46,632 nt of DNA from a virus. Location of the stretch: positions 1 to 46,632 of IMG/VR virus record IMGVR_UViG_3300046543_000361; one strand, given 5' to 3'. Every line of letters begins with the position of its first letter. Position 1 is the first letter of the stretch. Under the pieces are notes generated by a model, which was given only the letters and a program-made list of their open reading frames with translations, did not search any database and had not been told where the DNA came from. Below are positions 16,730 to 46,615 of this stretch, one piece after another. A program made the position numbers and the translations under genes.

Positions 16730-16758
16730 GCCCAATCTGAGCTCGAACTTATGGCACT
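16730..16758 (+). repeat. Leader repeat, copy 1 (before 16751 gene)
   Basis: GCCCAATCTGAGCTC followed by RAACTTAT and the start ATGGCACT recurs at 22686-22716 with one substitution and a 2-base insertion just before the start. Thus both downstream proteins begin MAL. There is no SD in the repeat. A shorter match of the same core (AGCCCAATCTGAGC) is at 28671-28684 inside the giant gene. Confidence 0.6.
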
Positions 16759-21384: not shown

Positions 21385-22680
21385 ATGGCAATCAAAACAA
21401 GTGGAACAGGTGGAGCAGAGGCTGATTTGACGGCGGCACAGATTGCAGCACTTCGTGCACAGACAGGTCTGTCGCAGGCTCAAATTAACCAAATGGCTGC
21501 TGAGAACGCGTTAAAGGGACAAGAACTCCAACAACGTGGTCAAATTGCAACTGAAGGTTTCAAAGTTGATCGAGAGAAAATTGGTCTTGGTCAGCAAGAA
21601 ATGACATCGAAGGATAAACAAGCAAAGTTAGGTGCAGCGTTGGAACTATTAGGTCAAGGTTCAAAAGAGAAAATCGCAGGTCAAAGTGAGAAAGCTGGTT
21701 TACAAGCAGACTTATCACGACGAACTGATATTCCACAAGATGTATTAGCTCGAACCTTGGCAGCTGGTGGTAATCCAGAATTGTTTAATGCACTTGCACA
21801 AGCAAAGTTGGATAAACAGAATACCGCAATTCGGTCATTTATTCAGCCTTTACAAAGTGCTAAAAGTGATGCAGATAGAGAGAAGAAACTAAAGCCTGCT
21901 CTTGAGTCAATTCGACCTGGTGCGTATCAGGAAGCTCTTGCGTTAGCTTATCCAAAAGCTGGACAGGCTGCGCCAACGGCTACACCAGAGCCAGCTCCGA
22001 CACCTACGACACCTGCTGCTAGTGGTGGTGAGACAACGAATCCATTGGCTGCGGTTTTATTGGCTGCCGCTGGGTTTGGTGATGGGAATAATGGTGCTGG
22101 TGGTGGGAATGGTGCTATGGGTAAAGTTGCACCAAGAGTAGCAAATGTTGATCCTAATTATCCTGTGTTACCGAACACCCCTGAGGTTGCGTATACTGGT
22201 CGTGGACATGGGTCGCTTGAAGGTTCGATACCAGTTGCTGGTGGAATTCAAACACCAAGTGGTGGGTTTATTGGTCTACGTAATGGCATTAGTCGAAACT
22301 TAGCTGAGTTAATTGCACCACGTGGAACTGATCCATCTAGTTTAGTTGGCCCAACAGTAGCTACTCCAACAATTCCTTATAACGATTCTGGCGAAACACC
22401 ACAAGTAATGGCAAATGGTGGACTTAGTGTTCCAATACCTGTTGGTGATGAAGTGACTGGTGGTCAAGAGGTACCAAAACCTAATATTCCGTTAGTGTCT
22501 CCTGCACCTTTTGATTTTGGAAAACTGTTATCAGCTAACCCTAACCCAACTCCAGTTCCTGTTGCTCCAACTGTAACACCAGCTCCTAATATAAGTGCTG
22601 AACAAGCTGCTCAACTTGCAGAAGCAGAACGTCAACGGCAGCTCCGTGCAGCACTTGCAGCACAACAAAATCAACAATAG
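21385..22680 (+). CDS. Putative internal virion (ejection) protein (431 aa)
   Basis: Strong SD (TTAGGAGGTTAATATG). The N-terminal 150 residues are helical and Gln/Lys-rich (around 30-110). The middle has a Pro/Thr linker (about 190-215) and a Gly/Ala-rich hydrophobic stretch (220-250), then Pro-rich sequence and a final Ala/Gln helix. Ala-rich helical proteins directly before the giant internal protein in podoviruses are usually ejected with the DNA. No enzymatic motif seen. Confidence 0.6.
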   Translation: MAIKTSGTGGAEADLTAAQIAALRAQTGLSQAQINQMAAENALKGQELQQRGQIATEGFKVDREKIGLGQQEMTSKDKQAKLGAALELLGQGSKEKIAGQSEKAGLQADLSRRTDIPQDVLARTLAAGGNPELFNALAQAKLDKQNTAIRSFIQPLQSAKSDADREKKLKPALESIRPGAYQEALALAYPKAGQAAPTATPEPAPTPTTPAASGGETTNPLAAVLLAAAGFGDGNNGAGGGNGAMGKVAPRVANVDPNYPVLPNTPEVAYTGRGHGSLEGSIPVAGGIQTPSGGFIGLRNGISRNLAELIAPRGTDPSSLVGPTVATPTIPYNDSGETPQVMANGGLSVPIPVGDEVTGGQEVPKPNIPLVSPAPFDFGKLLSANPNPTPVPVAPTVTPAPNISAEQAAQLAEAERQRQLRAALAAQQNQQ

Positions 22681-22685
22681 TTCTG

Positions 22686-22716
22686 GCCCAATCTGAGCTC
22701 AAACTTATATGGCACT
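22686..22716 (+). repeat. Leader repeat, copy 2 (before the giant gene)
   Basis: Second copy of the GCCCAATCTGAGCTC...ATGGCACT leader found at 16730-16758. It starts 6 nt after the stop of the ejection-protein gene and runs into the start codon of the 2,419-codon gene. The likely roles are a regulatory site or a recombination joint left by gene shuffling. Confidence 0.6.
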
Positions 22717-25700
22717 CGACTACGGTAGCGTAAAAGACATGTATGATACCCTGTATGATGCAGGGGTCACAACGAAAACATTGCCTGAGTGGTCTCAGGA
22801 CATGAATGAGTTGACGAATACCCAATTATACAATGCAGGATTGCATGATAACTGGATTAAAAGAACGTCACATGGGATTGATAAGATACTAGAGTCGACA
22901 GGGTTACCAGGATATGGAGAGCAGTTGGGAAGATCTGTAGGTGGGTTGGTCGGAGCACCAGAGGCAGGAGCTGAAGTGGGGCATGGGCTTCCACGGTCAG
23001 TATTAAACTTTGCACCATTGCTTATTCCTGGTGGTGGAGTGCCTGCAGTCGCAGCGAAGTTGGGCCTTACTGGAGCATTAACCGCGGGTGAGACGTATGA
23101 GAAAACTGATAGTCCACTTGCCTCACTAATCTCAGGTGGCGTTGCTACGGCATTGCCTGGAGTTGCTGGAAAAGCCTCAGACGTGGTTGGAAGTCTATTG
23201 AGCAAATCCATTGGTGTTCCTTCGATTGCAGGTCCTGTGGCAGACCTTGAAGGGAATGTGTTGAAAAACATAACTCAGTATTTCCCTGAGACATTTGCAC
23301 AGAAGGCTATTCCTAAAGTGGGTGGAGAGTTAGCTGGACAAGCTGCGGCCGCGGGTGTAATGGGTGCGGCTCAACCGTTACAACAGCTCGCTGAAGGTGA
23401 GACACCGACTTCACCATTTACAACCGAGAACGCACTGAATCTCACGTTGGGTCAGCTCCCGTTTGCAGCACTACATATTGGTGGGAAGGCATTAGGCCTA
23501 CATGGAGAAGCTCCTGAACCAATGAAAGCTGACGATCTACAGAAGATCATTGATATGTCAGCGGCGAGGATCAAGTTGAAAACGGCCGCGGATGACCTTG
23601 CAAATAAGACAGAGATTGAAAAGGGTAGTGATGGAGTTGCTGATGAAACACAGCAGCCTGAGGTTTCCTATGAGACTAAACGACAAACCCGACTCCTGTT
23701 GCAATCTGTCCGCGGTGAACAGATAGCTTTGAAGGACGATCCTAATTTGACCGATGAGCAAAAGGTCGAACGGATGAATGATCTGTTGAATCAGGATTTT
23801 GACCTTCAGAAGAAGAACACGGCTGAGGATACCAGCACGATTTTGGGCAATGGTATCAATGAGGACACTACACGACAGGAAATTGTAGGGAAACAGTTGG
23901 CCGAGAATCGTAGTGGCACATGGCGTGCAGTTCAAGTGCTGGATGATCCTACGAATCCGCCAGATTTGGTGGGTCGCGTAATAGGTTACTCAACGAAAAG
24001 TGAACCTTCACCACAGCATTTTGGTCTTTCGACGTTAAATACGAGTCCTATCAATCCCGTTGGAAAATTTAGCCTACCTGATCCTCAATGGTGGTCGCAC
24101 AACAAAACCGTTGACGAATGGAATCAACGCTACGTGAAAAAACAGGGTGAGATTGTATCACCGTGGGACCAGCCACCTGAACTTCCTACACAGGAACGCG
24201 AACTGACAGATGAGCAAGTCAGTATGCATTTGAACGAGCTGAAAAATATCTATGATGCAGCTGACGCAGCTGATTCACCTGGTGATTTGCAGTCCGCGGT
24301 GGTCCATCTAAATGGAGTAGAAGCTGAGAATAACCTCCCTACAACAAATGACGCAACAATCTCGAGAAGTGCGAATCAACTCATCAACGCGGGCTTCAAT
24401 CCCGATGACGCAGTCAAAGCAACCGTTAAAGCCAGAACACGCAGAGTTGCTCGAGAGCTTACTGCAGGTGCTACGGCTACCAAAGCCCAAGTCACCCGAC
24501 TGTTGAAGGCTGGGTTTGATCAGGAAACGATTGATAAGATGGATGGTGAGCAGAGGGCAGACGCTCTAGGTGCTATTAAGTCACTGAGAGAAACTGAGCG
24601 TGGAGCACCGAAGCCCACCAAAGAAGAAGCTGCAACGGTCTCTGCTCAGTTCGAGGCGGGCAAGGGAACGAATCCGGGGTTTTCGGTTATTACTGCGGAT
24701 AAATTGTCACATTCGCATGAGGAGGACACGACGGAGAATCAACCCCTAAAGGATCTAGTTACAGACGCGGCAGTAGCCGCTGCTAAGTCACCCGAGGCGA
24801 CAGCCGCATTTCAGGGTTGGGAAGGGCACGAGGACACCACGATTGGCAAGGACTTCACAGATTTTCTTGATCTTGTTCAGAACTATACTTCGTTAAAAAA
24901 TGTCGATCCTGACGAGGCAGCTAAAACTTTGAACGATCGGTTTGGCACTACGACGTGGGATGCTCAGGAAGTTAAGGACTTCATCAATCGTCCACATGTG
25001 CAAGAGTGGTCGAAAGGGTTGGATGCTGAGTTGGTAAGAATGCAGACTGGGAACGGGTCACCATTCACTTATTATCACGGAACGCAACTTCCAGTTGAAA
25101 AATTTGTTGCTGGTCATCCAGTATATTTAACGTCTGATATTGAAGCCGCGCGTAGTTATGCACGTAATAGTGAACGTGCTAGTGAAGGTGCAAGAGTGCC
25201 ACCAAGAGAAGGTCAACCAACAGTTTTGAATGTTAAAACAGATTTTCAAAATGTTGCAAAAGTAGATGATGTTGAAAATGTTATTAAAGAACTTGGAGTT
25301 AAAGATTCTGTTGATGATGTGCTTTTTGGGACTAGTATAGATTCTGGTAAGGTGTTTGATGAGTTATCGAACCGTGGTTATGATGCAGTAGATTATCATG
25401 ACCAAAACGCTGAAACTGGAGATGTTATTCCTGCTGTGCTTTCGTTGAAACCTGAGGATTTACAAGTTGCAGATCAAACTAAAATTGCAGCACCAGGAAC
25501 GGTAGGTCGTGCAGATGCACCCGAATGGGTTCCAGATGAGCAGCGTGACATTGATAAGATTCAACAAATGGGAATTGCACAGGGTGGGAAGGGTATGCTA
25601 CAATTTTTGCAGAATAGTGGAAACCCACTTTTCACGGCACTTGCGAAGGACTTATCCAAGTTCGGAGATTCGCTTTCTCGTATTAGGGGATCAGTCAGGG

Positions 25701-28700
25701 ACATTGAGAGTGGAGCTCTGACTCGAAGATTACCTGGTGACCAATTTGAAATCTCACTATCACCAGCTGTGTTGCGGGAGCCAGATTTTGAACAGAATTA
25801 TACAGTAGCACATGAGCTCATTCATGGTCTTACAATGGCTGAACTTGGGAGGCCCACCAATAGTGCAATCTATGATGGGATGAACGACCTACGTGAAAAG
25901 GTCATTGCGAAGTTGCCCAAGGACATGAAGGCGGCTTACAACAACGCAATTGAAAACGGTTGGTATGACAAATACATGTCAGCAACACGACCTGAGGACG
26001 GGTCGGTTGAGTCCCTGATGCCAAAGGGAACGTCGGAGCAGCGAGCCACACTTTATGCGTTACTTAACACGGATGAATTTGTAGCTCAAGGCTTGAGTGA
26101 GAACTCATTCCGCCAGTTTTTGAAAGGTATAAAGTCGGATGGTGGTGGTTGGTATCATAGGTTTACCAACTATGTGAAAACCCTGTTGGGTATTGGTGAA
26201 AACATTTCCAATACCGCGTTCGAGGAGTTCCTTTCCAAGACGGATCAGTTGCTCACACGTGGTAATTACGTCTCAAGTTTCAAGAACTTCTCTGATCGTT
26301 ATTTTGAGAACCTCGGACATGCGGATCAATATGTTCGATCTAATACTCAACGAGCTATGGCACTCATGTTAGGTGCTGAGAGCACAGACTCTCCAATGGT
26401 TACACTATCAATGCTACGAGCTGGTGTAGGAGCTGTTCGTTCACCTGAATGGGCTACCTCGTATCGGGATGCAATTCGGATGTTTAATGAAAAGGGTGAT
26501 GACGCTGCGGTGACCCATTCGGTCTTGGATGAAACTGGACACCAGTCGAACTTGAATGGGTTAAATGACATGACCGATTCACTAATGCTAGGTGAAACGT
26601 CACACGATGCATTGGAGCTGTTGCCGGAAGCTGCTGCCCGCTACATTTTTGAAACTGCTAAGGACGCACAGAATATTCTAGGTGTTATACGGGCAGCCAC
26701 ACTCGAACACAACAAGGGTATTGTAAATATTGCTGACCCAGGGTTCATTCGTAACATTGCAAAGCAAACGTTAAAAGGTGTTGATGCGGTTGTGGGACAA
26801 TCTCGCTTACACGATATGCAGATTCGTGATATGCAAGGACTGTTGGGAATGACGCCTGACAACTACCTTCAGGACATGATTCGCGGAGCGTTGGAGAAGG
26901 GCGATACAAAGTCACCTGAATGGGCAACTGACGAAACTAAACGCTCGTGGGGTCAGGCGATCCAAAGGTTCATTGAGCCTATTGGACAGCTTGCGAGAAG
27001 GGTGGGACCAGAGGCTTCTGAGGCGTTTGCAAGGGGTTGGCAACTCAACGCTAATATGCGTAAGATGATGAGTGAGTCCGTCAAAGCTTTTGGTATGGAT
27101 TTGTCCACAATGACGTTGACCAAAGAGACGGTCAAAAACATGCAACGTGCGTTAGTGGAACCACGTATTACAGATGCAGTTAACAAATGGATCTACGAGA
27201 ATCAACTCGCTGGTAAAAGGACTGGAGAAACCCGAGTAATCGAAGCTGACGATCCGAGGATTGTTAACGTGATTGGGAACCTCAGTAAAGCTGATCGAGA
27301 CGTAGTTGAGGATATTGTCAATAAACATCAAATCTCCATGCAACATATGCAGGAGCAAGTCCTTGAGAAGGGCCTACAAATTGCCTCTACCAACGGAGCA
27401 GTTATAGCTCAACGTTTGAATGGTGGCAAGTTGAAGGACAATGTGGCACTGAGTGAGCAATTGTTAAAAGCCTTCACCGCAGACCGCTCAGACCCCAACA
27501 TGTCGGCGATAGCTGATCAGCAAATTGCACAGGTTCAGGCCAAGATGGACCCAGACTCCTTCTTAGCGTTAGCAAGGTTTACAAAGTCTGCTGCTGACTC
27601 GTGGCAGGCGCAGCGTGAATGGTTCAAAACAAATCCTGCGTGGAGCACAGCACAACGATATGGAAAACTACTTGTTGAATACAAAAAGAATGGTAAGACT
27701 TTTACAGCTGGGGTTGACACAAAACAAGAGGCGGAACAGATCACGGGAGGGCGTCCGTTCAAACTCACGAAGAACTCCCAATACGACGAAGACAGACCGC
27801 CAATCCTTGGACCAGACTCGGTTGGAATAGTTAACCGATTGAGAGAGTTGGAAGGGACCCAACTGGATATCCTACGAAGCAGTGGTGCGTTCAGTCCTGA
27901 CCAGATTGCCCAAATTCAACAATATAGCCCCTCAGAACAGTTTGCAACTGAAGAAACCTATCGGGGTGGAGTTCCTGGATTGACACCTCCAACAAGGGGT
28001 CTGACAAAGGGCGCGTCAGAGTTACCTTGGTTACGCAACCACTTTTCGTGGGTATCAAAAACTGCCAACTACTGGAGTAGACAACTGCTTCGAGCCCAAG
28101 CACGAGCGCATTTGTTGGACCCTGAGATAGCTCAAAACGAACAACTTCGACGTGACCTACAAACGCATTACGATAATATCCTACAGCCTGACAGTCAGGT
28201 AGGTCGATTAGCACAACGTGCTGCGATGACATGGTTTATGGGATTCAATCCTGCGTCCGCAATGATCAATGCAACGCAACCATTTTTAACACATGTTGCG
28301 GAGCTAACCTCCATGTCGGGCAAGCCGTTGGATTCGTATCGGAGGGTTTTGAGTGCAATAAAGGACGTTTTTGCCAATAAGTTGGGTAAGGATCAATGGT
28401 CGGATGAGGGTGTGGGTAACATGATTCATGAAGCCTACCAGTCGGGGGAACTCGACCTGTCGAAGTATGATGACCAAGCAGAAGCTCAAGAGTCAATCCA
28501 CACAAACTACAAACGATTATTATCAGGCAACCGAACACAAACAACTGGACAACGTCTTTCGACTCTGGCTGGTTCATATAGCACATGGGGTTTGGCTATG
28601 TTCCGAACGGTTGAGGAAATGAATAACATGGCGGCGTTGATAGCGTCATACAAATATTACCGAGAGTCTGAGCCCAATCTGAGCCAAGACCAGCTTGTGG

Positions 28701-29968
28701 CAAAAGCGTTCGAGTTCAATCATGCAGTCAATTACGGGGGCGGACGAGCCGCAAGACCTATCGGAGTATTCTCTGGTCGTGGAGCCTTTCCGCGTACTGC
28801 AGCAATGCTCGCCACTTCGATGCAGTCATATAACCTTGGAACAACTTTTCAACTTGTACGCTATATAAAGTCAGGGCTCTTTCGTCCAGAAGGGGCAACG
28901 CCTCATGAAGTCTGGTCAGCTCGAAAGGCGGCAGTTCAAATGTTGGCCACTCAGTTCGCTGCCGCAGGCGTACTAGGATTGCCCTTCGTATCAGGAATGC
29001 TCTCTGTGTTGAATTCAGCGTTTCCCAACCTAGAAGTGAATCGACACTTGAGGGAATGGATGCAGGACATAACGGGGGGTGACGAGCAAAACGGTCACGT
29101 ATTGAACGATATAGCAATGACAGGTGCACCTTCAATGTTAGGGTGGGATTTACAATCACGATTGAGTATGGGGAATACGGTTCCAGGCGTTAGTGAGATC
29201 AATGGGTTTCAACCGGAGAACCTTCTCGGCGCACCATTCAACCTCGTATCCAACTTCGTCAAGGGCGGCGTACAACTCGCCTCGGGTAACATACCACAAG
29301 CCGTCGATGCCTTCGCTCCCAGTGCATACAAGAAGCTTGAGCAACTCCTGAGGTCCAACGGACAGGTCTTGGATTACCGCAACAGACCAATTTTTACGCC
29401 AACGATCGGAGAAACTGTAGGGATAGGTTTGGGGTTCCAACCAAAACGCCTTTCCGATTACAACGCTGCGAGCCGTATGGCCAAGCAGAGTGACGACAAT
29501 ATCAAACGTCGAGAGGGAGATTTTCATCAACAGATGGCGGGAGAAGTGTTGAAAGGGAACTTTGGAACTGTTCGTCAGGCCCTACAACAACGCTCACGAG
29601 AGGACAAAACTTATGACCCTCGGGAGGCGGTTCGTTCAATTGCAGGTGCAGCCGAAGAACTGACTTTCCCGCGGGATCTACGACGAGAAGGTACAGTTGG
29701 CGGCTCGGATGTTCGAGATAAACTTCTTGCAACATTTAATCTTCCTCCGGTTGGTCAACCATCAGAGGTGGACCGACTGAACTTTCGTCAGAATGTTCAG
29801 CAACGACTTGGGTTAGTGGGATCGTCACCCACGGATTTATCGACGGCAACGGTGATTGATCAGCTAAGGCAACAGAATCCGGCGTCGAGTCGGGCTGAGC
29901 TACGCCAACAAGCGACCCTCCTTTTGCACGGACGGCGGCTGCAAACTTATCCATTACAGCAGGAGTAG
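22709..29968 (+). CDS. Giant polyvalent virion protein (ART and metallopeptidase domains)
   Basis: 2,419 residues. Residues ~65-260 are Gly/Ala-rich with hydrophobic helices. Around 785-930 a segment begins TYYHGTQLPVEKF and contains VYLTSDIEAARSYA, the H-G-T / Y-x-T pattern of ADP-ribosyltransferase-like (ART) domains. At 1035-1039 is HELIH (VAHELIHGLT), with Glu1123 (NTDEFVAQ) as a possible third zinc ligand, a zincin-like peptidase. The C-terminal third is helical with MGFNPASAMINATQPFL, reminiscent of large polyvalent-protein-associated domains. Such proteins are known from phages and conjugative elements and are thought to enter the cell with DNA. Here it probably also serves as the ejection conduit. 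Its last 233 bp overlap the helicase gene on the other strand. Confidence 0.75.
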   Translation: MALDYGSVKDMYDTLYDAGVTTKTLPEWSQDMNELTNTQLYNAGLHDNWIKRTSHGIDKILESTGLPGYGEQLGRSVGGLVGAPEAGAEVGHGLPRSVLNFAPLLIPGGGVPAVAAKLGLTGALTAGETYEKTDSPLASLISGGVATALPGVAGKASDVVGSLLSKSIGVPSIAGPVADLEGNVLKNITQYFPETFAQKAIPKVGGELAGQAAAAGVMGAAQPLQQLAEGETPTSPFTTENALNLTLGQLPFAALHIGGKALGLHGEAPEPMKADDLQKIIDMSAARIKLKTAADDLANKTEIEKGSDGVADETQQPEVSYETKRQTRLLLQSVRGEQIALKDDPNLTDEQKVERMNDLLNQDFDLQKKNTAEDTSTILGNGINEDTTRQEIVGKQLAENRSGTWRAVQVLDDPTNPPDLVGRVIGYSTKSEPSPQHFGLSTLNTSPINPVGKFSLPDPQWWSHNKTVDEWNQRYVKKQGEIVSPWDQPPELPTQERELTDEQVSMHLNELKNIYDAADAADSPGDLQSAVVHLNGVEAENNLPTTNDATISRSANQLINAGFNPDDAVKATVKARTRRVARELTAGATATKAQVTRLLKAGFDQETIDKMDGEQRADALGAIKSLRETERGAPKPTKEEAATVSAQFEAGKGTNPGFSVITADKLSHSHEEDTTENQPLKDLVTDAAVAAAKSPEATAAFQGWEGHEDTTIGKDFTDFLDLVQNYTSLKNVDPDEAAKTLNDRFGTTTWDAQEVKDFINRPHVQEWSKGLDAELVRMQTGNGSPFTYYHGTQLPVEKFVAGHPVYLTSDIEAARSYARNSERASEGARVPPREGQPTVLNVKTDFQNVAKVDDVENVIKELGVKDSVDDVLFGTSIDSGKVFDELSNRGYDAVDYHDQNAETGDVIPAVLSLKPEDLQVADQTKIAAPGTVGRADAPEWVPDEQRDIDKIQQMGIAQGGKGMLQFLQNSGNPLFTALAKDLSKFGDSLSRIRGSVRDIESGALTRRLPGDQFEISLSPAVLREPDFEQNYTVAHELIHGLTMAELGRPTNSAIYDGMNDLREKVIAKLPKDMKAAYNNAIENGWYDKYMSATRPEDGSVESLMPKGTSEQRATLYALLNTDEFVAQGLSENSFRQFLKGIKSDGGGWYHRFTNYVKTLLGIGENISNTAFEEFLSKTDQLLTRGNYVSSFKNFSDRYFENLGHADQYVRSNTQRAMALMLGAESTDSPMVTLSMLRAGVGAVRSPEWATSYRDAIRMFNEKGDDAAVTHSVLDETGHQSNLNGLNDMTDSLMLGETSHDALELLPEAAARYIFETAKDAQNILGVIRAATLEHNKGIVNIADPGFIRNIAKQTLKGVDAVVGQSRLHDMQIRDMQGLLGMTPDNYLQDMIRGALEKGDTKSPEWATDETKRSWGQAIQRFIEPIGQLARRVGPEASEAFARGWQLNANMRKMMSESVKAFGMDLSTMTLTKETVKNMQRALVEPRITDAVNKWIYENQLAGKRTGETRVIEADDPRIVNVIGNLSKADRDVVEDIVNKHQISMQHMQEQVLEKGLQIASTNGAVIAQRLNGGKLKDNVALSEQLLKAFTADRSDPNMSAIADQQIAQVQAKMDPDSFLALARFTKSAADSWQAQREWFKTNPAWSTAQRYGKLLVEYKKNGKTFTAGVDTKQEAEQITGGRPFKLTKNSQYDEDRPPILGPDSVGIVNRLRELEGTQLDILRSSGAFSPDQIAQIQQYSPSEQFATEETYRGGVPGLTPPTRGLTKGASELPWLRNHFSWVSKTANYWSRQLLRAQARAHLLDPEIAQNEQLRRDLQTHYDNILQPDSQVGRLAQRAAMTWFMGFNPASAMINATQPFLTHVAELTSMSGKPLDSYRRVLSAIKDVFANKLGKDQWSDEGVGNMIHEAYQSGELDLSKYDDQAEAQESIHTNYKRLLSGNRTQTTGQRLSTLAGSYSTWGLAMFRTVEEMNNMAALIASYKYYRESEPNLSQDQLVAKAFEFNHAVNYGGGRAARPIGVFSGRGAFPRTAAMLATSMQSYNLGTTFQLVRYIKSGLFRPEGATPHEVWSARKAAVQMLATQFAAAGVLGLPFVSGMLSVLNSAFPNLEVNRHLREWMQDITGGDEQNGHVLNDIAMTGAPSMLGWDLQSRLSMGNTVPGVSEINGFQPENLLGAPFNLVSNFVKGGVQLASGNIPQAVDAFAPSAYKKLEQLLRSNGQVLDYRNRPIFTPTIGETVGIGLGFQPKRLSDYNAASRMAKQSDDNIKRREGDFHQQMAGEVLKGNFGTVRQALQQRSREDKTYDPREAVRSIAGAAEELTFPRDLRREGTVGGSDVRDKLLATFNLPPVGQPSEVDRLNFRQNVQQRLGLVGSSPTDLSTATVIDQLRQQNPASSRAELRQQATLLLHGRRLQTYPLQQE

Positions 29969-33066: not shown

Positions 33067-33370
33067 GTTTTTCGAGAGCTCGGTTGACTGCCATTTCAGG
33101 TGACGGTGCAGCCGCAGTATGACTCATGCCATTTGTTGAAACGATTTCGGCGTTGTAGTAGTTGGCAATCCAAGCTCCGTCAATCCAATGATTGTGACGT
33201 TCGATTTTGAGTAGATGAAATTCTGTGTTCTTACCTTTGATAATTAAGTTCCTTGCGTATCGTGATGTTACTTGTTGTGGTGCGTTCATACTTTTTCTTT
33301 TGAATAGTTTTAATAGCCCGATTAGTGGTGACATTCCATTTGGATAACATTTAAGTGAATCAAAGTTCAT
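33047..33370 (-). CDS. Small early protein downstream of the polymerase (107 aa)
   Basis: The chosen ATG at 33370 lies inside the last codons of the polymerase gene (11-nt overlap); an internal ATG at residue 28 (MNAPQQVTS) is possible. The compact second half, IDGAWIANYYNAEIVSTNGM ... SPEMAVNRALEKHG, looks like a small alpha/beta domain with aromatic residues. No motif recognised. Confidence 0.6.
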   Translation of the reverse strand: MNFDSLKCYPNGMSPLIGLLKLFKRKSMNAPQQVTSRYARNLIIKGKNTEFHLLKIERHNHWIDGAWIANYYNAEIVSTNGMSHTAAAPSPEMAVNRALEKHGVTFR

Positions 33371-35864
33371 TGTCTAACTCTCCCCACGATCGTCCGAACC
33401 GACCATCAAAAGGAATAATGAGTGGGATTCCGGCGATAGTGAGAGTATTTTGAAACCAACCTCTAATCTTGTGTCGTGCCCATTCTCGCACCGCACTAGG
33501 GTATTGCCCGAGTAAAGCATCGTGAACTTGGTGGAGTGGCTCAACGATAAGACTGCCGTTAGGTCGTCTGTTCTCAGGGTCGCTCCACAAGTTAAGCATT
33601 GCAAGATTAGTGGCATAGGTGGTGTTTTGTTGGGGCTCGTCAGCTAGGAGTTCCTTGACAGTGTCCTCTATTCCGTTTCCAAATCGTCGACCAAAGAATA
33701 TTCTAGTGTGTCCACTTGCACTAGTAAGATTCCCTCCGGAGACAATGACCGAGTAACCCCAATTATGATAAAGTTGCACTCCACGGTAACGGGATTTGTA
33801 GGAGTCCTGGAACGCTCGGCCTTCACGTTGTTCGAGATAGATTGGTTCACCGGATTTTTTGTAGCTATCCTTCATTACCTGGGTGCATATGGTGGGTACA
33901 CCGACAAGATAATTAGTGGAGTGTTGAACTCGTTTACACGCAAAGTATCGCCAGTCTTTTTTATCCACAACCCGCATGAGATTGAGTAGTGATACTCGGT
34001 CAAGTTGGTTAACTTCAATACCGAGATCGTAAAGAAAGACAATAAGTTTTGCGACTTGGAGTCCATACAGTAAATCGTCCAGCATAGTCCGTTCTCCAAG
34101 TGATGCAATCCGTGCCGCAACCGTCCACCCGTCAGCACCTTTAAGATCGCATTGGAACATGTCCATGCCTTCGTCCGCAATGTAGTTTTCACGTTCACTT
34201 TCAGTAATAGTGGTTAAATTCGCACCGGAACCTGTCGGACTCGTGTAACATGTGAGCCGGCCGGTTTCAGTCCCAACGACGTTATATCCACAGCGCACTC
34301 GACCATCAGCGTCTGGCTTGATGTTGAGTGTTTCAATAACTGATTCAATATGGCGATGTTTAAGTATAAGCGACAAGAACCTGTCGTCTTTGTCTTTCCT
34401 CTTGAGAGTAAGAAGAGCTTCAACATCGGTTGTAAGCTTGTCAGTTTTCTTTCCTCGTTCTTTTTTGAATTGTTTAGGATACTTGCCCGTGTCATACATA
34501 ACTTTGACGAGGCGTTGAGGCACGAGAGATCCTTTGGGTCCACGGAGTTCTGTACCTGCAATTTGACAGAGTTCTTCACCGAGGCTACTGATTTCTTTTT
34601 TACGTTCTTCGAGCTTTTGGTTGACTTTGTTTTGATCATATCGTATACCGCGTAGCTCCATGTATAGGAGCGGGTTTAACATTTTGATGTTGAAATCGTA
34701 ATGACCGCGAGCAGCTCCGGTTAGGACATTATCCTGATTGTTGCATATCTCGATCGTGACCGCGGAGTCAATCGCACAGGCTTTGTATTTGTTCTCACGT
34801 TCAGTGGCTGGGTCAACTCCTGCGAGAGCTCGTTTCTTCTGCTCTCGTTTGGAATACGCTATCATGTATTTCCATTGAGGTTGTCGGGTCCATATACTTG
34901 CCTGTGTGTCTAGTCCTTTTGGAAGTTCGCAGTAAATCTCCCACCCCTTCAACATTGTGTCTTCTCTGACGTTGGCAATGGGGATTCCGTATCCATAGGA
35001 GAGAACGAAATTGTCATAGAGACTATTTTGCAAGACCTTGGGGACATCGTTTCTTGCCATGAGTCGTGCAAAAGCTTGCAGAACACGAGCGTGGTCGGTT
35101 GAGTTGAACTTCCCCCATGCAATTGTGAATCCCTTTGAGGGTCGTGCTGATAAAGAGACACATGACCATCCTCCCAATCGACCCTCAATATCAACGGAGC
35201 ATCGCTGGCTAGTTGGCCAGGAATTAAGAATGTAACATAGGGTGGAGGCGTCATAGTTGGTTATAAGTTCACGTTGGGGAAGGATGAGTTGAGAGCTGAG
35301 GCTCTCGTCTTTAGCCCGTTTAAGGTCAAATTTAAGCAAAGGAAACCCACTCCATTCACGAAGAACGAAAGCAGGATGTAGGGATGGAACGCACTTTCGT
35401 CCAAACATAGGAGAGCTGAGTAGAGTACATTCAAACAAGCTCCCACGCCACTCACTAATTTTAGAACCTTGACCCATTGCAGCACATAGTGGAGTGTTGC
35501 CCAACAGGACCGTAATGTTTGGTTTGAACTTGGTGAGATCTTCATTTAACTTTTGGAGTCCTTCCTGTATTTCTGGGCCAATCCAACTGAACGCTTCAAT
35601 TCGGTTAGCGGGTGGGCGAACCTGACAAACATTCCCAAGGAAACATTGATTCCGCTCAATACCAATGTCGCGCAAAAGATTGGTAAGGAAGTTACCCGAT
35701 TTACCAACGAAGGGTCTTCGGTGATTTTCTTCATCTTCACCAGGAGCTTCACCAACAAGTGCAATTCTGCTTTCAGTAGGATCAATAATTGGGAACTCAT
35801 TTGGAACAGTTCGTCGTTGGGTTACGATTTTTGGGAACTCGATTGTGGGTGCTGTCGTTTCCAT
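33360..35864 (-). CDS. Uracil-DNA glycosylase / family A DNA polymerase fusion
   Basis: 834 residues. Residues ~30-190 match family 4-type uracil-DNA glycosylase: GEAPGEDEE (38-46), RPFVGKSGNFL, NVCQVRPP and SLHPAF (His163). Next is a 3'-5' exonuclease-like domain: DIEG (Asp225, Glu227), NSLYDN (280-285) and ACAIDSA (Asp366), the usual Tyr four before the last Asp being Ala. The polymerase has motif A around QCDLKGADGW (Asp573), motif B DWRYFACKRVQHSTNYLVG and motif C HQVHDALL (Ala where many have Glu). It is the replicative polymerase; the fused glycosylase may check templates for uracil. The start overlaps the upstream gene by 43 nt. Confidence 0.9.
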   Translation of the reverse strand: METTAPTIEFPKIVTQRRTVPNEFPIIDPTESRIALVGEAPGEDEENHRRPFVGKSGNFLTNLLRDIGIERNQCFLGNVCQVRPPANRIEAFSWIGPEIQEGLQKLNEDLTKFKPNITVLLGNTPLCAAMGQGSKISEWRGSLFECTLLSSPMFGRKCVPSLHPAFVLREWSGFPLLKFDLKRAKDESLSSQLILPQRELITNYDASTLCYILNSWPTSQRCSVDIEGRLGGWSCVSLSARPSKGFTIAWGKFNSTDHARVLQAFARLMARNDVPKVLQNSLYDNFVLSYGYGIPIANVREDTMLKGWEIYCELPKGLDTQASIWTRQPQWKYMIAYSKREQKKRALAGVDPATERENKYKACAIDSAVTIEICNNQDNVLTGAARGHYDFNIKMLNPLLYMELRGIRYDQNKVNQKLEERKKEISSLGEELCQIAGTELRGPKGSLVPQRLVKVMYDTGKYPKQFKKERGKKTDKLTTDVEALLTLKRKDKDDRFLSLILKHRHIESVIETLNIKPDADGRVRCGYNVVGTETGRLTCYTSPTGSGANLTTITESERENYIADEGMDMFQCDLKGADGWTVAARIASLGERTMLDDLLYGLQVAKLIVFLYDLGIEVNQLDRVSLLNLMRVVDKKDWRYFACKRVQHSTNYLVGVPTICTQVMKDSYKKSGEPIYLEQREGRAFQDSYKSRYRGVQLYHNWGYSVIVSGGNLTSASGHTRIFFGRRFGNGIEDTVKELLADEPQQNTTYATNLAMLNLWSDPENRRPNGSLIVEPLHQVHDALLGQYPSAVREWARHKIRGWFQNTLTIAGIPLIIPFDGRFGRSWGELDNEL

Positions 35865-37966: not shown

Positions 37967-38224
37967 TTAATTAGCTCTAAGGTTTCGTTTGATTGCTCGT
38001 TGAGCAAAAGTTAGATCGCGCTTTTCATCGTAGGAAAGAGCTTCGTATTCGGGTTCAGTTATTAACATAGTGCCTGTTAAACTGACCTTTGAAATAAATC
38101 CACAACCACCACATACTAATAGGTCTCCGATTTGTGGTGGAGTTCGAACGAGGTCGACCTGTTTGAGTTCCAAAAGGTCCATGTGGCATTTTGGGTTGGC
38201 ACATTTAAGCGGTTGAAATTTCAT
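37967..38224 (-). CDS. Zinc-ribbon early protein (85 aa)
   Basis: Begins MKFQPLKCANPKCHMDLLEL; the pairs CANPKC and CGGC (LLVCGGCGFISKV) form a four-Cys ribbon. The first seven codons are identical in DNA to those of the 38397-38720 gene. Its start overlaps the upstream stop as ATGA. Nucleic-acid or protein binding is the general expectation for such ribbons. Confidence 0.7.
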   Translation of the reverse strand: MKFQPLKCANPKCHMDLLELKQVDLVRTPPQIGDLLVCGGCGFISKVSLTGTMLITEPEYEALSYDEKRDLTFAQRAIKRNLRAN

Positions 38225-38396: not shown

Positions 38397-38720
38397 TTAG
38401 TTTGCACTTTGCATTGCACTTGTTCCTTTGATTTCACCTGTTACTTTATTTACGTATATCTTCGCTCGACTCAAAAGTGATCGTGGAACATGAACAACTA
38501 TGGCTGTTCCATATAAAGTTAGTGGTTCTGTTTTATCTTTACCAAAAAGAAAGTCTTTAGGTGACACTGAGATTTGGTTTTTAAGATCACCACATAACAC
38601 ATCGAATGTGCATATTGGTCGGAAACCAACAATTTTGTTGTAGTTATCTTTAGCCCAACGTTGAACATACTTACGTCGTTTCTCTTTATCTTTATAACCT
38701 TTAAGCGGTTGAAATTTCAT
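38397..38720 (-). CDS. Small early protein (107 aa)
   Basis: Begins MKFQPLKGYKDKEKRRKYVQ with a strongly basic first helix, then a beta-rich domain (VPRSLLSRAKIYVNKVTGEI). The first 21 nt are identical to those of the 37967-38224 gene. ATGA-coupled to the 59-aa gene upstream. No motif recognised. Confidence 0.65.
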   Translation of the reverse strand: MKFQPLKGYKDKEKRRKYVQRWAKDNYNKIVGFRPICTFDVLCGDLKNQISVSPKDFLFGKDKTEPLTLYGTAIVVHVPRSLLSRAKIYVNKVTGEIKGTSAMQSAN

Positions 38721-39500: not shown

Positions 39501-39707
39501 TTATGTTATTGGGTTTTCATTTTGTGTTGGTTGTGTTTGTGGGACGTTTATAGGTTGACCTTGAGTTAGCGAGGGTCGCTGCCAAGGTGCAACTGAAAGA
39601 ACTTGGAAACCGGATTTGTCTAGGTCGTCGGAGATTTCTGCTGAGACACCAGGAAGGTCACTCAGGTCGTCGAGGTTTAGAGCGACTAGAAATGTTACTT
39701 GTGGCAT
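39501..39707 (-). CDS. Small early protein (68 aa)
   Basis: Strong SD (AAGGAGACAAAATG). Begins MPQVTFLVALNLDDLSDLPG; a short strand-helix domain (SAEISDDLDKSGFQVLSVAP) with a Pro/Gln tail. Similar short 'VALNLD....... i...L...GF.v.sV.PW' proteins occur beside phage SSBs in my recollection. Function unknown. Confidence 0.65.
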   Translation of the reverse strand: MPQVTFLVALNLDDLSDLPGVSAEISDDLDKSGFQVLSVAPWQRPSLTQGQPINVPQTQPTQNENPIT

Positions 39708-40324
39708 TTTGTCTCCTTCACATTCGCGAGTGCGTCACTAGCCTTCATTCCACCGTCTTGATTTATCTCAGACGACCCCTCGACCTCACTACTTCCATCA
39801 GACAGTCCTAGAACATCATTGACGTAATTTTCCTGATCTGCGTAAAACTTCAGCGCATCCACAAGCGGCTGTTGTGCTGCGGCTATCTTTGCCTCCAGCA
39901 CATCAGTCCAATCACGGTCAGCCTCTTTGCGCGCATGGTCGTATGCTTCGGTTATGGCTGCGTCGAGTGCGGTGGTGTCGTCGGGAAAGTCTAGCGTATG
40001 ACCATAGGCTCTTTTGTGTCGCTGTATCGCCGCCTGTGCTGCCGCCAGTTGTGATCGGAGTTGCTCCGTTGCTTTGTCTAATATCGCAAGCGTCCGCTCG
40101 TGCTTCTCACGCTCGGCGGCGAGTGCGGCGTTGTGGGCGTTGGCTATCTCTTTGCAAACGGCAATCATTAGCCGTCCGTTCGGAGTGGTTGGATTAAACG
40201 CTCTTGTCTCTTGGCGTGTCTCGTATGCAAACTCACAAGCATAGCTTTCGTAGAGTTCGTGAAACTGTCGCGCGAGTGCTTCCGCCGTCCATTCGCCTGT
40301 TGTGGGTTTGGGTTGGTCGATCAT
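39695..40324 (-). CDS. GC-rich coiled-coil protein, likely acquired (209 aa)
   Basis: Start at ATG 40324 (MIDQPKPTTGEWTAEALARQ) overlaps the ATPase stop as ATGA; the frame extends 10 codons further without need. The middle (about 65-165) is a long Ala/Arg/Glu coiled coil; then comes ALKFYADQENYVND, a short motif familiar from prophage hypotheticals. Local GC reaches about 67% (40081-40140) against roughly 45% in the SSB gene, so this gene looks recently acquired. Function unknown. Confidence 0.65.
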   Translation of the reverse strand: MIDQPKPTTGEWTAEALARQFHELYESYACEFAYETRQETRAFNPTTPNGRLMIAVCKEIANAHNAALAAEREKHERTLAILDKATEQLRSQLAAAQAAIQRHKRAYGHTLDFPDDTTALDAAITEAYDHARKEADRDWTDVLEAKIAAAQQPLVDALKFYADQENYVNDVLGLSDGSSEVEGSSEINQDGGMKASDALANVKETKCHK

Positions 40325-41046
40325 GCTGATAACTTTCCTTTGATTAAGTTCCAATCGAATCCAAGTTTAGCTGGTAACTCAATGTCATTTTTGAGACCAT
40401 GATGCTGTGTGTCTTGAATTGTTCGGATAACTCGTTTGTATTTTGGTGGGAAGCCTTCCGACTCAACTTCGCAGCGCCACACATTGGTGAAAAACGCACC
40501 CATGTAATCGCCAAGTTGACCTGGCCAAGCCAAACGATACTGAATAATGTTGGTCATTGCGTCTTGCTCGATTTTCTCGTGCATTGTGAGGATAAAGTTC
40601 TTCCGCATTACAGTTATCTTGGCAATGAACGTTCGAGTTGCGAGCAAAAAGAACTGATAGATTTGGCGACCGTCCTTGAGGGATGGTTGCTGACGATTGA
40701 CTTCGGCCATTATTACAGGCGCGAGTCCGGTTCCACTATCAATGACTACGGTTTCAATATCAGGGTTGACTGAGGCGTCAGCTACGAGCTTATCCAATCT
40801 AAGGTATTGAGCTGATGCAGGAACTGGTTTTCCAGTTTCGTCAACATCAAGTCGATCATACCCTACTGGGGTAACAAGGTTGTGGTTCTTACAATATCGT
40901 ATTGGTCCCCCAAGGTTTACATCAGCGTCAATGATGTAGGCTTTGGGGAACTGACATGCGGTTGTGCTCTTACCAGAACCCGGTGGACCTTGTAGTAGGA
41001 GACGAATGAATTCTTCTTTGGTGCTGTAGTTTGTTATTGGTTGCAT
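40321..41046 (-). CDS. Sak4-like P-loop recombination ATPase
   Basis: 241 residues. Walker A LLLQGPPGSGKSTTA (residues 17-30), then FPKAYIIDAD; Walker B ETVVIDSGTG (98-107). Compact RecA-like core without a sensor domain, as in phage AAA/Sak4 annealing-associated ATPases. Neighbouring nuclease and SSB genes make a recombination or end-processing module. TAATG coupling to the 52-aa gene upstream and ATGA to the gene downstream. Confidence 0.8.
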   Translation of the reverse strand: MQPITNYSTKEEFIRLLLQGPPGSGKSTTACQFPKAYIIDADVNLGGPIRYCKNHNLVTPVGYDRLDVDETGKPVPASAQYLRLDKLVADASVNPDIETVVIDSGTGLAPVIMAEVNRQQPSLKDGRQIYQFFLLATRTFIAKITVMRKNFILTMHEKIEQDAMTNIIQYRLAWPGQLGDYMGAFFTNVWRCEVESEGFPPKYKRVIRTIQDTQHHGLKNDIELPAKLGFDWNLIKGKLSA

Positions 41047-45973: not shown

Positions 45974-46150
45974 TTAAACTCCTTTGATTGTGATTGTGGT
46001 TTCGTCCCATTCGAGAACCACTTGAGCTTCGTTCGCGAGCTTGTGGTTTTTATTTATATAAACGGACGAGATGGGCCCGTTTTCGTTTTTGGTCTTAAAT
46101 GGAGTGCTATGAACGCAATCCTTGACCTTCGCCATTACTACTGTGTTCAT
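45974..46150 (-). CDS. Small beta-type early protein (58 aa)
   Basis: Begins MNTVVMAKVKDCVHSTPFKT; strand-rich, ending EWDETTITIKGV. AAGGAA lies 10 nt before the ATG. It is the first gene after the structured 46201-46363 element, so that element lies in its 5' leader if both are on one transcript. Function unknown. Confidence 0.65.
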   Translation of the reverse strand: MNTVVMAKVKDCVHSTPFKTKNENGPISSVYINKNHKLANEAQVVLEWDETTITIKGV

Positions 46151-46200: not shown

Positions 46201-46363
46201 GAGCTCACTCTGTGTGAGCGAAGGCTACACGACACACGGTTTCGGTTCCGGTTTCAAGCGACCGACCAAACTCATTAGGCTACCACTCATAACGTCGCTT
46301 GTGCCGTATTACACATGGTAGCTTTCACCGATAAGTGTCGTGTGCCCTCACAAGAGTGAGCTC
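46201..46363. ncRNA. Candidate structured RNA with pseudoknot
   Basis: Watson-Crick helices, outside in: 46201-46210 with 46354-46363 (10 bp); 46213-46218 with 46347-46352 (6); 46223-46225 with 46344-46346 (3); 46227-46235 with 46335-46343 (9); 46237-46240 with 46327-46330 (4). Inside lie CAAGCGAC/GTCGCTTG (46255-46262 with 46294-46301) and GCTACCA/TGGTAGC (46279-46285 with 46316-46322), which interleave as an H-type pseudoknot. There is no open reading frame across it. It lies between two leftward genes, so minus-strand transcription is expected, though helices do not fix the strand. I cannot match it to a known family. Confidence 0.65.
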
Positions 46364-46372
46364 AAAGTCAGC

Positions 46373-46615
46373 TTAATCCATCACTGTTCGTTCTTGCTGA
46401 GCGAAGTGGTCGAATTCACGAACGCGTCCGATCTCCCAGATACCCGGCTCGAGGAGCTGTTCGTTGTGTTCTTCGTGTTTTATCCTGACTGGATTTTTTA
46501 CATTCAGGAGCATTTGTTCCCCAATTTGGATCAGTTCCGCGTCACTTTCGTCGGCATCAATGAGGTGAGTATGACCGCTCTCACCGTGTGCTACGACGAT
46601 TTTACCCTTTGACAC
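46373..46615 (-). CDS. Small early protein with GESGHTH / HEEH motifs
   Basis: 80 residues, GTG start, with AAGGAG 11 nt upstream at the window edge. The sequence VVAHGESGHTHLID, HEEHNEQLL and GIWEIGRVREFDHF matches a small family I remember from phages and bacterial islands ('GE.tGH.H ... L.HEEH..i.l..G.Y.v..qREyd'), function unassigned. The clustered His and Glu could bind metal. It stops 9 nt before the structured element. Confidence 0.65.
   Translation of the reverse strand: MSKGKIVVAHGESGHTHLIDADESDAELIQIGEQMLLNVKNPVRIKHEEHNEQLLEPGIWEIGRVREFDHFAQQERTVMD

Follow-up and report, generated by a model that had tools for sequence, protein, structure and literature searches.

A 163-nt structured element flanked by small early genes in an uncultured phage

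The early-gene locus

The window, which is the whole stretch of 46,632 nt that was analysed, is a contig of an uncultured phage with its early genes on the minus strand. These encode DNA polymerase, ligase, DUF3987, ParB-methyltransferase, Sak4 and PD-(D/E)XK exonuclease; the polymerase, ligase, DUF3987, Sak4 and exonuclease genes match those of relatives in strand and order. Between two small early genes lies a 163-nt structured element, which nearly fills the intergenic gap (226 nt): the stop codon of the upstream gene is followed by 9 nt, the element, 50 nt and the ATG of the next gene. This spacing agrees with a preliminary description of the stretch, which had placed the element directly after the GESGHTH gene and ahead of the next early gene.

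46373..46615, minus strand: upstream gene, GESGHTH (GHxH) protein, phrog_27831-like; start probably beyond the contig end, GTG at 46615 doubtful
46201..46363, minus strand: whole structured element; −75.3 kcal/mol, z −6.8
45974..46150, minus strand: downstream gene, 58-aa protein, no relatives detected; AAGGA ribosome site outside the element

The reading frame of the GESGHTH gene is open to 46632, and homology with a 109-aa protein of the relative G042 (QQGDVL...GE) extends through the outermost codons of this frame; judging by the open frame and this alignment, the start of the gene probably lies off the contig, whose two ends (46632 and 1) are probably not neighbours in the genome. The AAGGA ribosome site of the 58-aa gene lies 30–40 nt outside the stem of the element and is predicted to be mostly unpaired. 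Searches of IMG/VR with the flanking proteins returned no match, nor did an alignment of the GHxH protein against GTDB; a back-translated HGESGHTH pattern gave two matches, both by chance and in another reading context.

No minus-strand ORF of at least 60 aa overlaps the element, as expected from its preliminary description as noncoding. A sigma70-like promoter was not found on the minus strand in the 269 bases upstream within the contig, although the sigma70 consensus may not be the type used by this phage, and a scan for a hairpin plus U-run detected no terminator after the element, which is followed by no U-run. Since neither signal was detected nearby, the simplest reading is that the element belongs to a longer transcript; strand and spacing suggest that it would be transcribed together with its neighbours.

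Several other features of the contig were recorded. A noncoding gap of ~470 bases (1088–1560) separates divergent early and late genes, contains a perfect 16-base palindrome (1518–1533) and is likely a divergent promoter region or origin. The 23-base repeat GCCCAATCTGAGCTCRAACTTAT, with 0 copies expected by chance, occurs at 16730–16752 and 22686–22708 (also 28673–28684), directly before two late genes (16751, 22709), and is a possible late promoter or control site. Three minus-strand gene starts (33348–33370, 38202–38224 and 38698–38720) have a conserved 23-base stretch, which encodes the nearly identical first residues of three early proteins (MNFDSLKC, MKFQPLKC, MKFQPLKG) that differ in the remainder. 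The DNA polymerase (33360–35864) has an N-terminal extension, common to relatives, with a motif (VGEAPG..E...PF.G.SG) resembling uracil-DNA glycosylase, which points to a possible fusion.

Fold, strand and significance of the element

The preliminary description listed seven complementary segments of 10, 6, 3, 9, 4, 8 and 7 bp, all of which are present in 46201–46363 at those lengths. On the minus strand, from 46363 to 46201, the element reads GAGCUCACUC-UUGUGAGGGC-ACACGACAC ... GUGUCGUGU-A-GCC-UUCG-CUCACA-CA-GAGUGAGCUC, and its parts, all on this strand, are as follows.

46354..46363, minus strand: P1a, 5′ strand GAGCUCACUC, 10 bp; pair probability 0.99–1.0
46201..46210, minus strand: P1a, 3′ strand GAGUGAGCUC, pairing with 46363–46354
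46347..46352, minus strand: P1b, 5′ strand UGUGAG, 6 bp, pairing with 46218–46213
46213..46218, minus strand: P1b, 3′ strand CUCACA
46335..46346, minus strand: P1c, 5′ strand GGC-ACACGACAC, 3 + 9 bp; pair probability of the 9 bp 0.97–1.0
46223..46235, minus strand: P1c, 3′ strand GUGUCGUGU-A-GCC, A46226 bulged; then the UUCG bulge 46222–46219
46327..46330, minus strand: P2, 5′ strand CGGU, 4 bp, pairing with ACCG 46240–46237; pair probability about 0.8
46237..46240, minus strand: P2, 3′ strand ACCG
46279..46322, minus strand: P3 hairpin, stem GCUACCA/UGGUAGC, 7 bp plus U-G, 30-nt loop L3; pair probability 0.98–1.0
46241..46270, minus strand: P4 hairpin, UUUGGUCGGU / ACCG..ACCGAA, loop L4 CGCUUGAA; probability of outer pairs 0.5–0.8
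46294..46301, minus strand: pseudoknot (loop-loop pairing), 5′ strand CAAGCGAC, within L3
46255..46262, minus strand: pseudoknot (loop-loop pairing), 3′ strand GUCGCUUG, within L4 and the uppermost pairs of P4; P 0.001–0.007

Stacking of the four outer segments (10 + 6 + 3 + 9 bp) gives an almost unbroken closing stem, interrupted by single-base steps and the four-base UUCG bulge; it comprises 28 pairs in the listed segments and 29 in the fold. An eleventh P1a pair, U-A (46353–46211), is possible, and P1c consists of a 3-bp part (46346–46344 / 46225–46223) and a 9-bp part (46343–46335 / 46235–46227). P2 leads into a three-way junction with hairpins P3, whose 7-bp stem is formed by 46322–46316 / 46285–46279, and P4, a 10-bp hairpin of the minus-strand fold (46270–46261 / 46252–46241) that was absent from the preliminary list.

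Folding of both strands, as the preliminary description had proposed, favoured the minus strand (−75.3 vs. −69.3 kcal/mol). The inverted repeats also fold strongly on the plus strand (z −6.4), where the U-G pairs of the minus-strand fold become A-C mismatches; the RNA of the element is assigned to the minus strand, on which the early genes lie. The plus strand of the contig folds most strongly elsewhere, at 40800–41020 (z −4.4); this fold is antisense within the Sak4 gene and is probably a coding by-product because pieces of the Sak4 gene DNA match relatives.

The nested fold (−75.3 kcal/mol) was compared with 2000 dinucleotide shuffles, which had a mean of −47.5 kcal/mol (sd 4.1; z −6.8) and a best value of −64.3, so that none reached the energy of the element; no other minus-strand window of the contig folds as strongly. 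Fitting a Gumbel distribution to these shuffles gave only P 3e-4 for one window; since the lower tail of this fit is heavier than that of the data, z and the empirical minimum are preferred. Without its two outer helices the core scores z −3.1, and for the apex by itself the value is an ordinary z −1.8. The significance of the fold therefore sits nearly all in the closing stem, and the preliminary statement that the structure cannot be chance holds for that stem (z −6.8 for the whole fold) but only moderately for the apex (z −1.8) and the pseudoknot (P 0.001–0.007).

The pseudoknot itself had been described as two interleaved helices, and the 8-bp helix (46301–46294 / 46262–46255) does interleave with the 7-bp P3 helix; a better description, however, is a kissing contact of 6–8 bp between the loops of two hairpins of a three-way junction, with 6 bp available when P4 is intact and 8 bp if two P4 pairs open. 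When the nested fold was held fixed and the loop letters alone were shuffled, the pairing had P = 0.001 for L3 against L4 and P = 0.007 for L3 against the whole stretch behind P3. A genome-wide pseudoknot descriptor was not discriminating and was set aside, similar sizes being common by chance: across 46 kb the best closed pseudoknots totalled 22–25 bp in shuffles vs. 26 bp here. Because closed pseudoknots of nearly this size are common by chance, this one matters only through its location; as modelled within the fixed fold, the L3–L4 pseudoknot is likely real.

The element is single-copy in the contig. Rfam 15 gave no match at gathering and only two irrelevant chance matches at E up to 10, in agreement with the preliminary remark that no family with this layout was known. 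As a structured element it is real and unusual, and it has no known family. Three other identities were considered and rejected: a mobile element (MITE), as the flanks carry no direct repeat or target-site duplication and the contig holds a single copy; a retron or Y RNA, as Pfam found no reverse transcriptase or TROVE-domain protein in a scan confined to 20 of the early proteins; and a tmRNA or tRNA, none of which was detected in the contig.

Relatives and the clade-wide folding pattern

Within the phage collection the contig has no close kin: the matches to its polymerase and terminase were all below 60% identity, at about 21–27% among the best 20 polymerase records and the 14 terminase records listed, and blastn against 50,697 phage records found no match to the element. 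A scan of IMG/VR with a DNA polymerase alignment recovered a clade with polymerases up to 56% identical, whereas Sak4 and the exonuclease as single queries gave no match. For comparison, thirteen whole genomes, the window among them, were put together from separate pieces; in the closest relatives the core early and structural genes are colinear.

Blastn of the element against 14 and 50 relative genomes found no copy, and its core pattern (P3 plus the pseudoknot) had no match in IMG/VR or GTDB. The covariance search suggested in the preliminary description, run with a single-sequence model including the structure over 193 sources (3.36 Mb) of relatives, found the element alone. No homologue having been found, there are no compensatory changes to count; the sister contigs of G038 and of G045/G046, at 99.95–99.99% identity, are uninformative on this point. 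The preliminary description had also made poor conservation in relatives a mark against its reading, and this mark may apply. The element and both flanking genes were not found in the nearest sequenced relatives (polymerases 50–56% identical), but G042, with a polymerase only 38% identical, alone carries a homologue of the GHxH gene (55% identity, E 1.8e-24). On a circular reading of the G042 contig, this homologue lies ~10 kb upstream of the polymerase. It is followed by a 200-nt gap that folds strongly (z −5.2), into three separate hairpins that share no alignable sequence with the element. More distant GHxH homologues, in a Manatee Spring phage and in Microcystis phages, have other genes closely behind, those of L214 and LMM01 leave no room for such an element, and the combination of a GHxH gene and an RNA is a lead, not a rule.

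A broader pattern emerged when 160-nt windows were ranked by folding energy corrected for G+C and the top five non-overlapping windows per strand were taken from each of the 13 genomes. In the variable upstream early zone, defined as running from the exonuclease gene to the divergent junction with borders that we set from tblastn positions, lay 34 of the 65 top windows of the early-sense strand vs. 13.7 expected by length, and 22 of the 65 of the opposite strand, in a count that includes overlapping genera and hence non-independent genomes; this enrichment may partly reflect the larger share of noncoding DNA in the zone. The nearest relatives, G001 and G015, show little enrichment and few strong elements, of which there are one in the window and one to three in some relatives. 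The elements of the zone are mostly long hairpins of 70–240 nt, with no sequence match among the hairpins of the clade's early zone; examples from relatives are the following.

G038, 29109–29259: long hairpin
G017, 21893–22120: long hairpin
G017, 23623–23729: long hairpin
G004, 39680–39889: long hairpin

A BLAST-based count of inverted repeats was discarded, as it misses the bulged element of the window and gave no clear genome-wide excess in most genomes. Palindromes of 150–200 nt were seen in the early regions of relatives at L197/L202–L204 (G038 29109–29259), L217 (G016) and L208 (G018 19–219); the sister contig G016 starts at the position equivalent to G038 29200, inside a palindrome, and G018 begins beside another. 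Such long palindromes may break assemblies.

Function and comparison with known systems

The best explanation, which we put forward tentatively, is that the element is an intercistronic RNA of an early polycistronic mRNA, most likely a site of RNase III-type cutting or insulation. The elements of the clade have in common a long stem, a location between early genes on the sense strand and a lack of sequence conservation, which together fit processing or insulation signals. Host RNase III or a similar double-strand nuclease would cut the closing stem P1, separating and protecting the two halves of the mRNA; the GHxH mRNA would retain a base-paired 3′ end and the 58-aa mRNA would begin afresh. 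The freed apex, a three-way junction held by P3, P4 and the L3–L4 pairing, may endure as a stable small RNA. We infer that the element is transcribed and cut, and likewise the stability of the apex and whatever role it has. The observations that support processing are a z of −6.8 dominated by the closing stem, the early-sense strand with its better fold and U-G pairs, the early gene order shared with relatives, the failure to detect a promoter before the element or a U-run after it, the mostly open downstream ribosome site, the clade enrichment and the structured gap of G042. Against it stand the fact that a plain processing hairpin needs neither a three-way junction nor a loop-loop pairing, and the limits of the enrichment, to which noncoding DNA may contribute and which is slight in G001 and G015.

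Those two features are central to the main rival, a possible but less probable reading in which the element is a dedicated noncoding RNA, in which the pseudoknotted three-way-junction core is what functions, whether as a decoy, in antidefence or directed at the host, and the stem only defines its ends. The element almost fills its gap, its fold is strong and well defined, its loops pair at P 0.001, and phages do carry ornate noncoding RNAs with kissing loops (PMC12286853); its own promoter and terminator were not seen, however, in the scans for a sigma70 consensus, which may differ from the promoter type of this phage, and for a hairpin plus U-run, its apex alone is unexceptional (z −1.8), and the absence of a homologue from about 193 loci (3.36 Mb) and from the IMG/VR and GTDB patterns leaves no covariation. 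A bolder form of the idea is rather unlikely: a compact class of early phage noncoding RNAs, with a loop-locked three-way-junction core of ~100 nt excised from early mRNA via its own stem, in a clade with lineage-specific, fast-changing structured RNAs that perhaps contest host nucleases or defence. The preliminary suggestions of a plan like that of large phage noncoding RNAs and of a packaging or priming role fared less well: kinship with such RNAs (a ROOL/GOLLD-like plan) found no support in sequence, size or covariation, and packaging or priming no evidence.

The remaining readings rank behind. A cis-regulator, either a leader controlling the 58-aa gene through a ligand or protein (perhaps the GHxH protein) or a termination/antitermination site of the early operon, is unlikely. 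The element does lie in the leader of the next cistron, a three-way junction with loop-loop contacts is the plan of several riboswitches, and the G042 gap after the GHxH gene is also structured; yet the fold of that gap differs in plan, the homologues in L214 and LMM01 leave no space for such an element, the ribosome site is predicted to be mostly open and outside the stem, no terminator follows, and with so long a closing stem there is no obvious partner for switching. Still less probable is a DNA-level palindrome (a cruciform, replication origin or protein site) with the RNA fold as a by-product. Inverted repeats that fold on both strands (plus-strand z −6.4) would suit it, as would the long palindromes that relatives carry in this zone, two of which lie at the ends of contigs, but the minus strand folds better and with G-U pairs, the sense strand has the greater excess across the clade (34 vs. 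22 of 65), and the site shows no GC-skew switch, iterons or direct repeats. That the element is a mutational relic, a functionless inverted repeat born by chance or duplication, is highly improbable: it is not conserved in any relative searched, and other early elements of the clade are unconserved too, which would suit a relic, but its 29-pair stem is built of several segments with bulges and not of one recent perfect inversion, it fills the intergenic gap exactly, and such folds are enriched across genomes.

If the processing reading is right, the early mRNA of an abundant clade of uncultured phages is organised by long structured elements between cistrons, which change faster than the neighbouring genes, and at least one of them has a pseudoknotted core that could act as an RNA itself. 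The element would also be a place to look for phage RNAs invisible to covariation surveys, which miss them because they lack homologues.

Among known systems, ROOL and GOLLD resemble the element in being noncoding, structured and phage-borne with loop-loop pairing, but both are much larger than the 163 nt of the element, with GOLLD often running to more than 800 nt; both are defined by covariation and often lie near tRNA islands, whereas this contig has no tRNA, and the element is unmatched by their Rfam family models. The phi29 pRNA has a long closing stem, a three-way junction and two loops able to pair, features that the element shares; the loops of the element, however, match within one molecule, phi29 is a 20-kb protein-primed phage whereas here a 46.6-kb contig carries a terminase-like gene, and Rfam gave no pRNA match. 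Purine-class riboswitches likewise combine a closing stem, a three-way junction and two arms with pairing loops, as the element does, but its arms and loops have other lengths, no expression platform was seen and Rfam gave no match to E 10.

RNase III-type cutting of stems is known from the T7 early transcript and from rRNA precursors. Like T7 R-sites and rRNA-precursor stems, the element is a long double-stranded stem placed between cistrons of what is, by strand and spacing, probably one early transcript, its 29 pairs lying between two same-strand genes. Most members of the clade may carry two or more strong hairpins in their early regions, against one in the window and few in G001 and G015. 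T7 R1.1 is a 60-nt substrate that yields products of 47 and 13 nt, whereas the element is a predicted substrate of 163 nt, branched and with a probably pseudoknotted apex.
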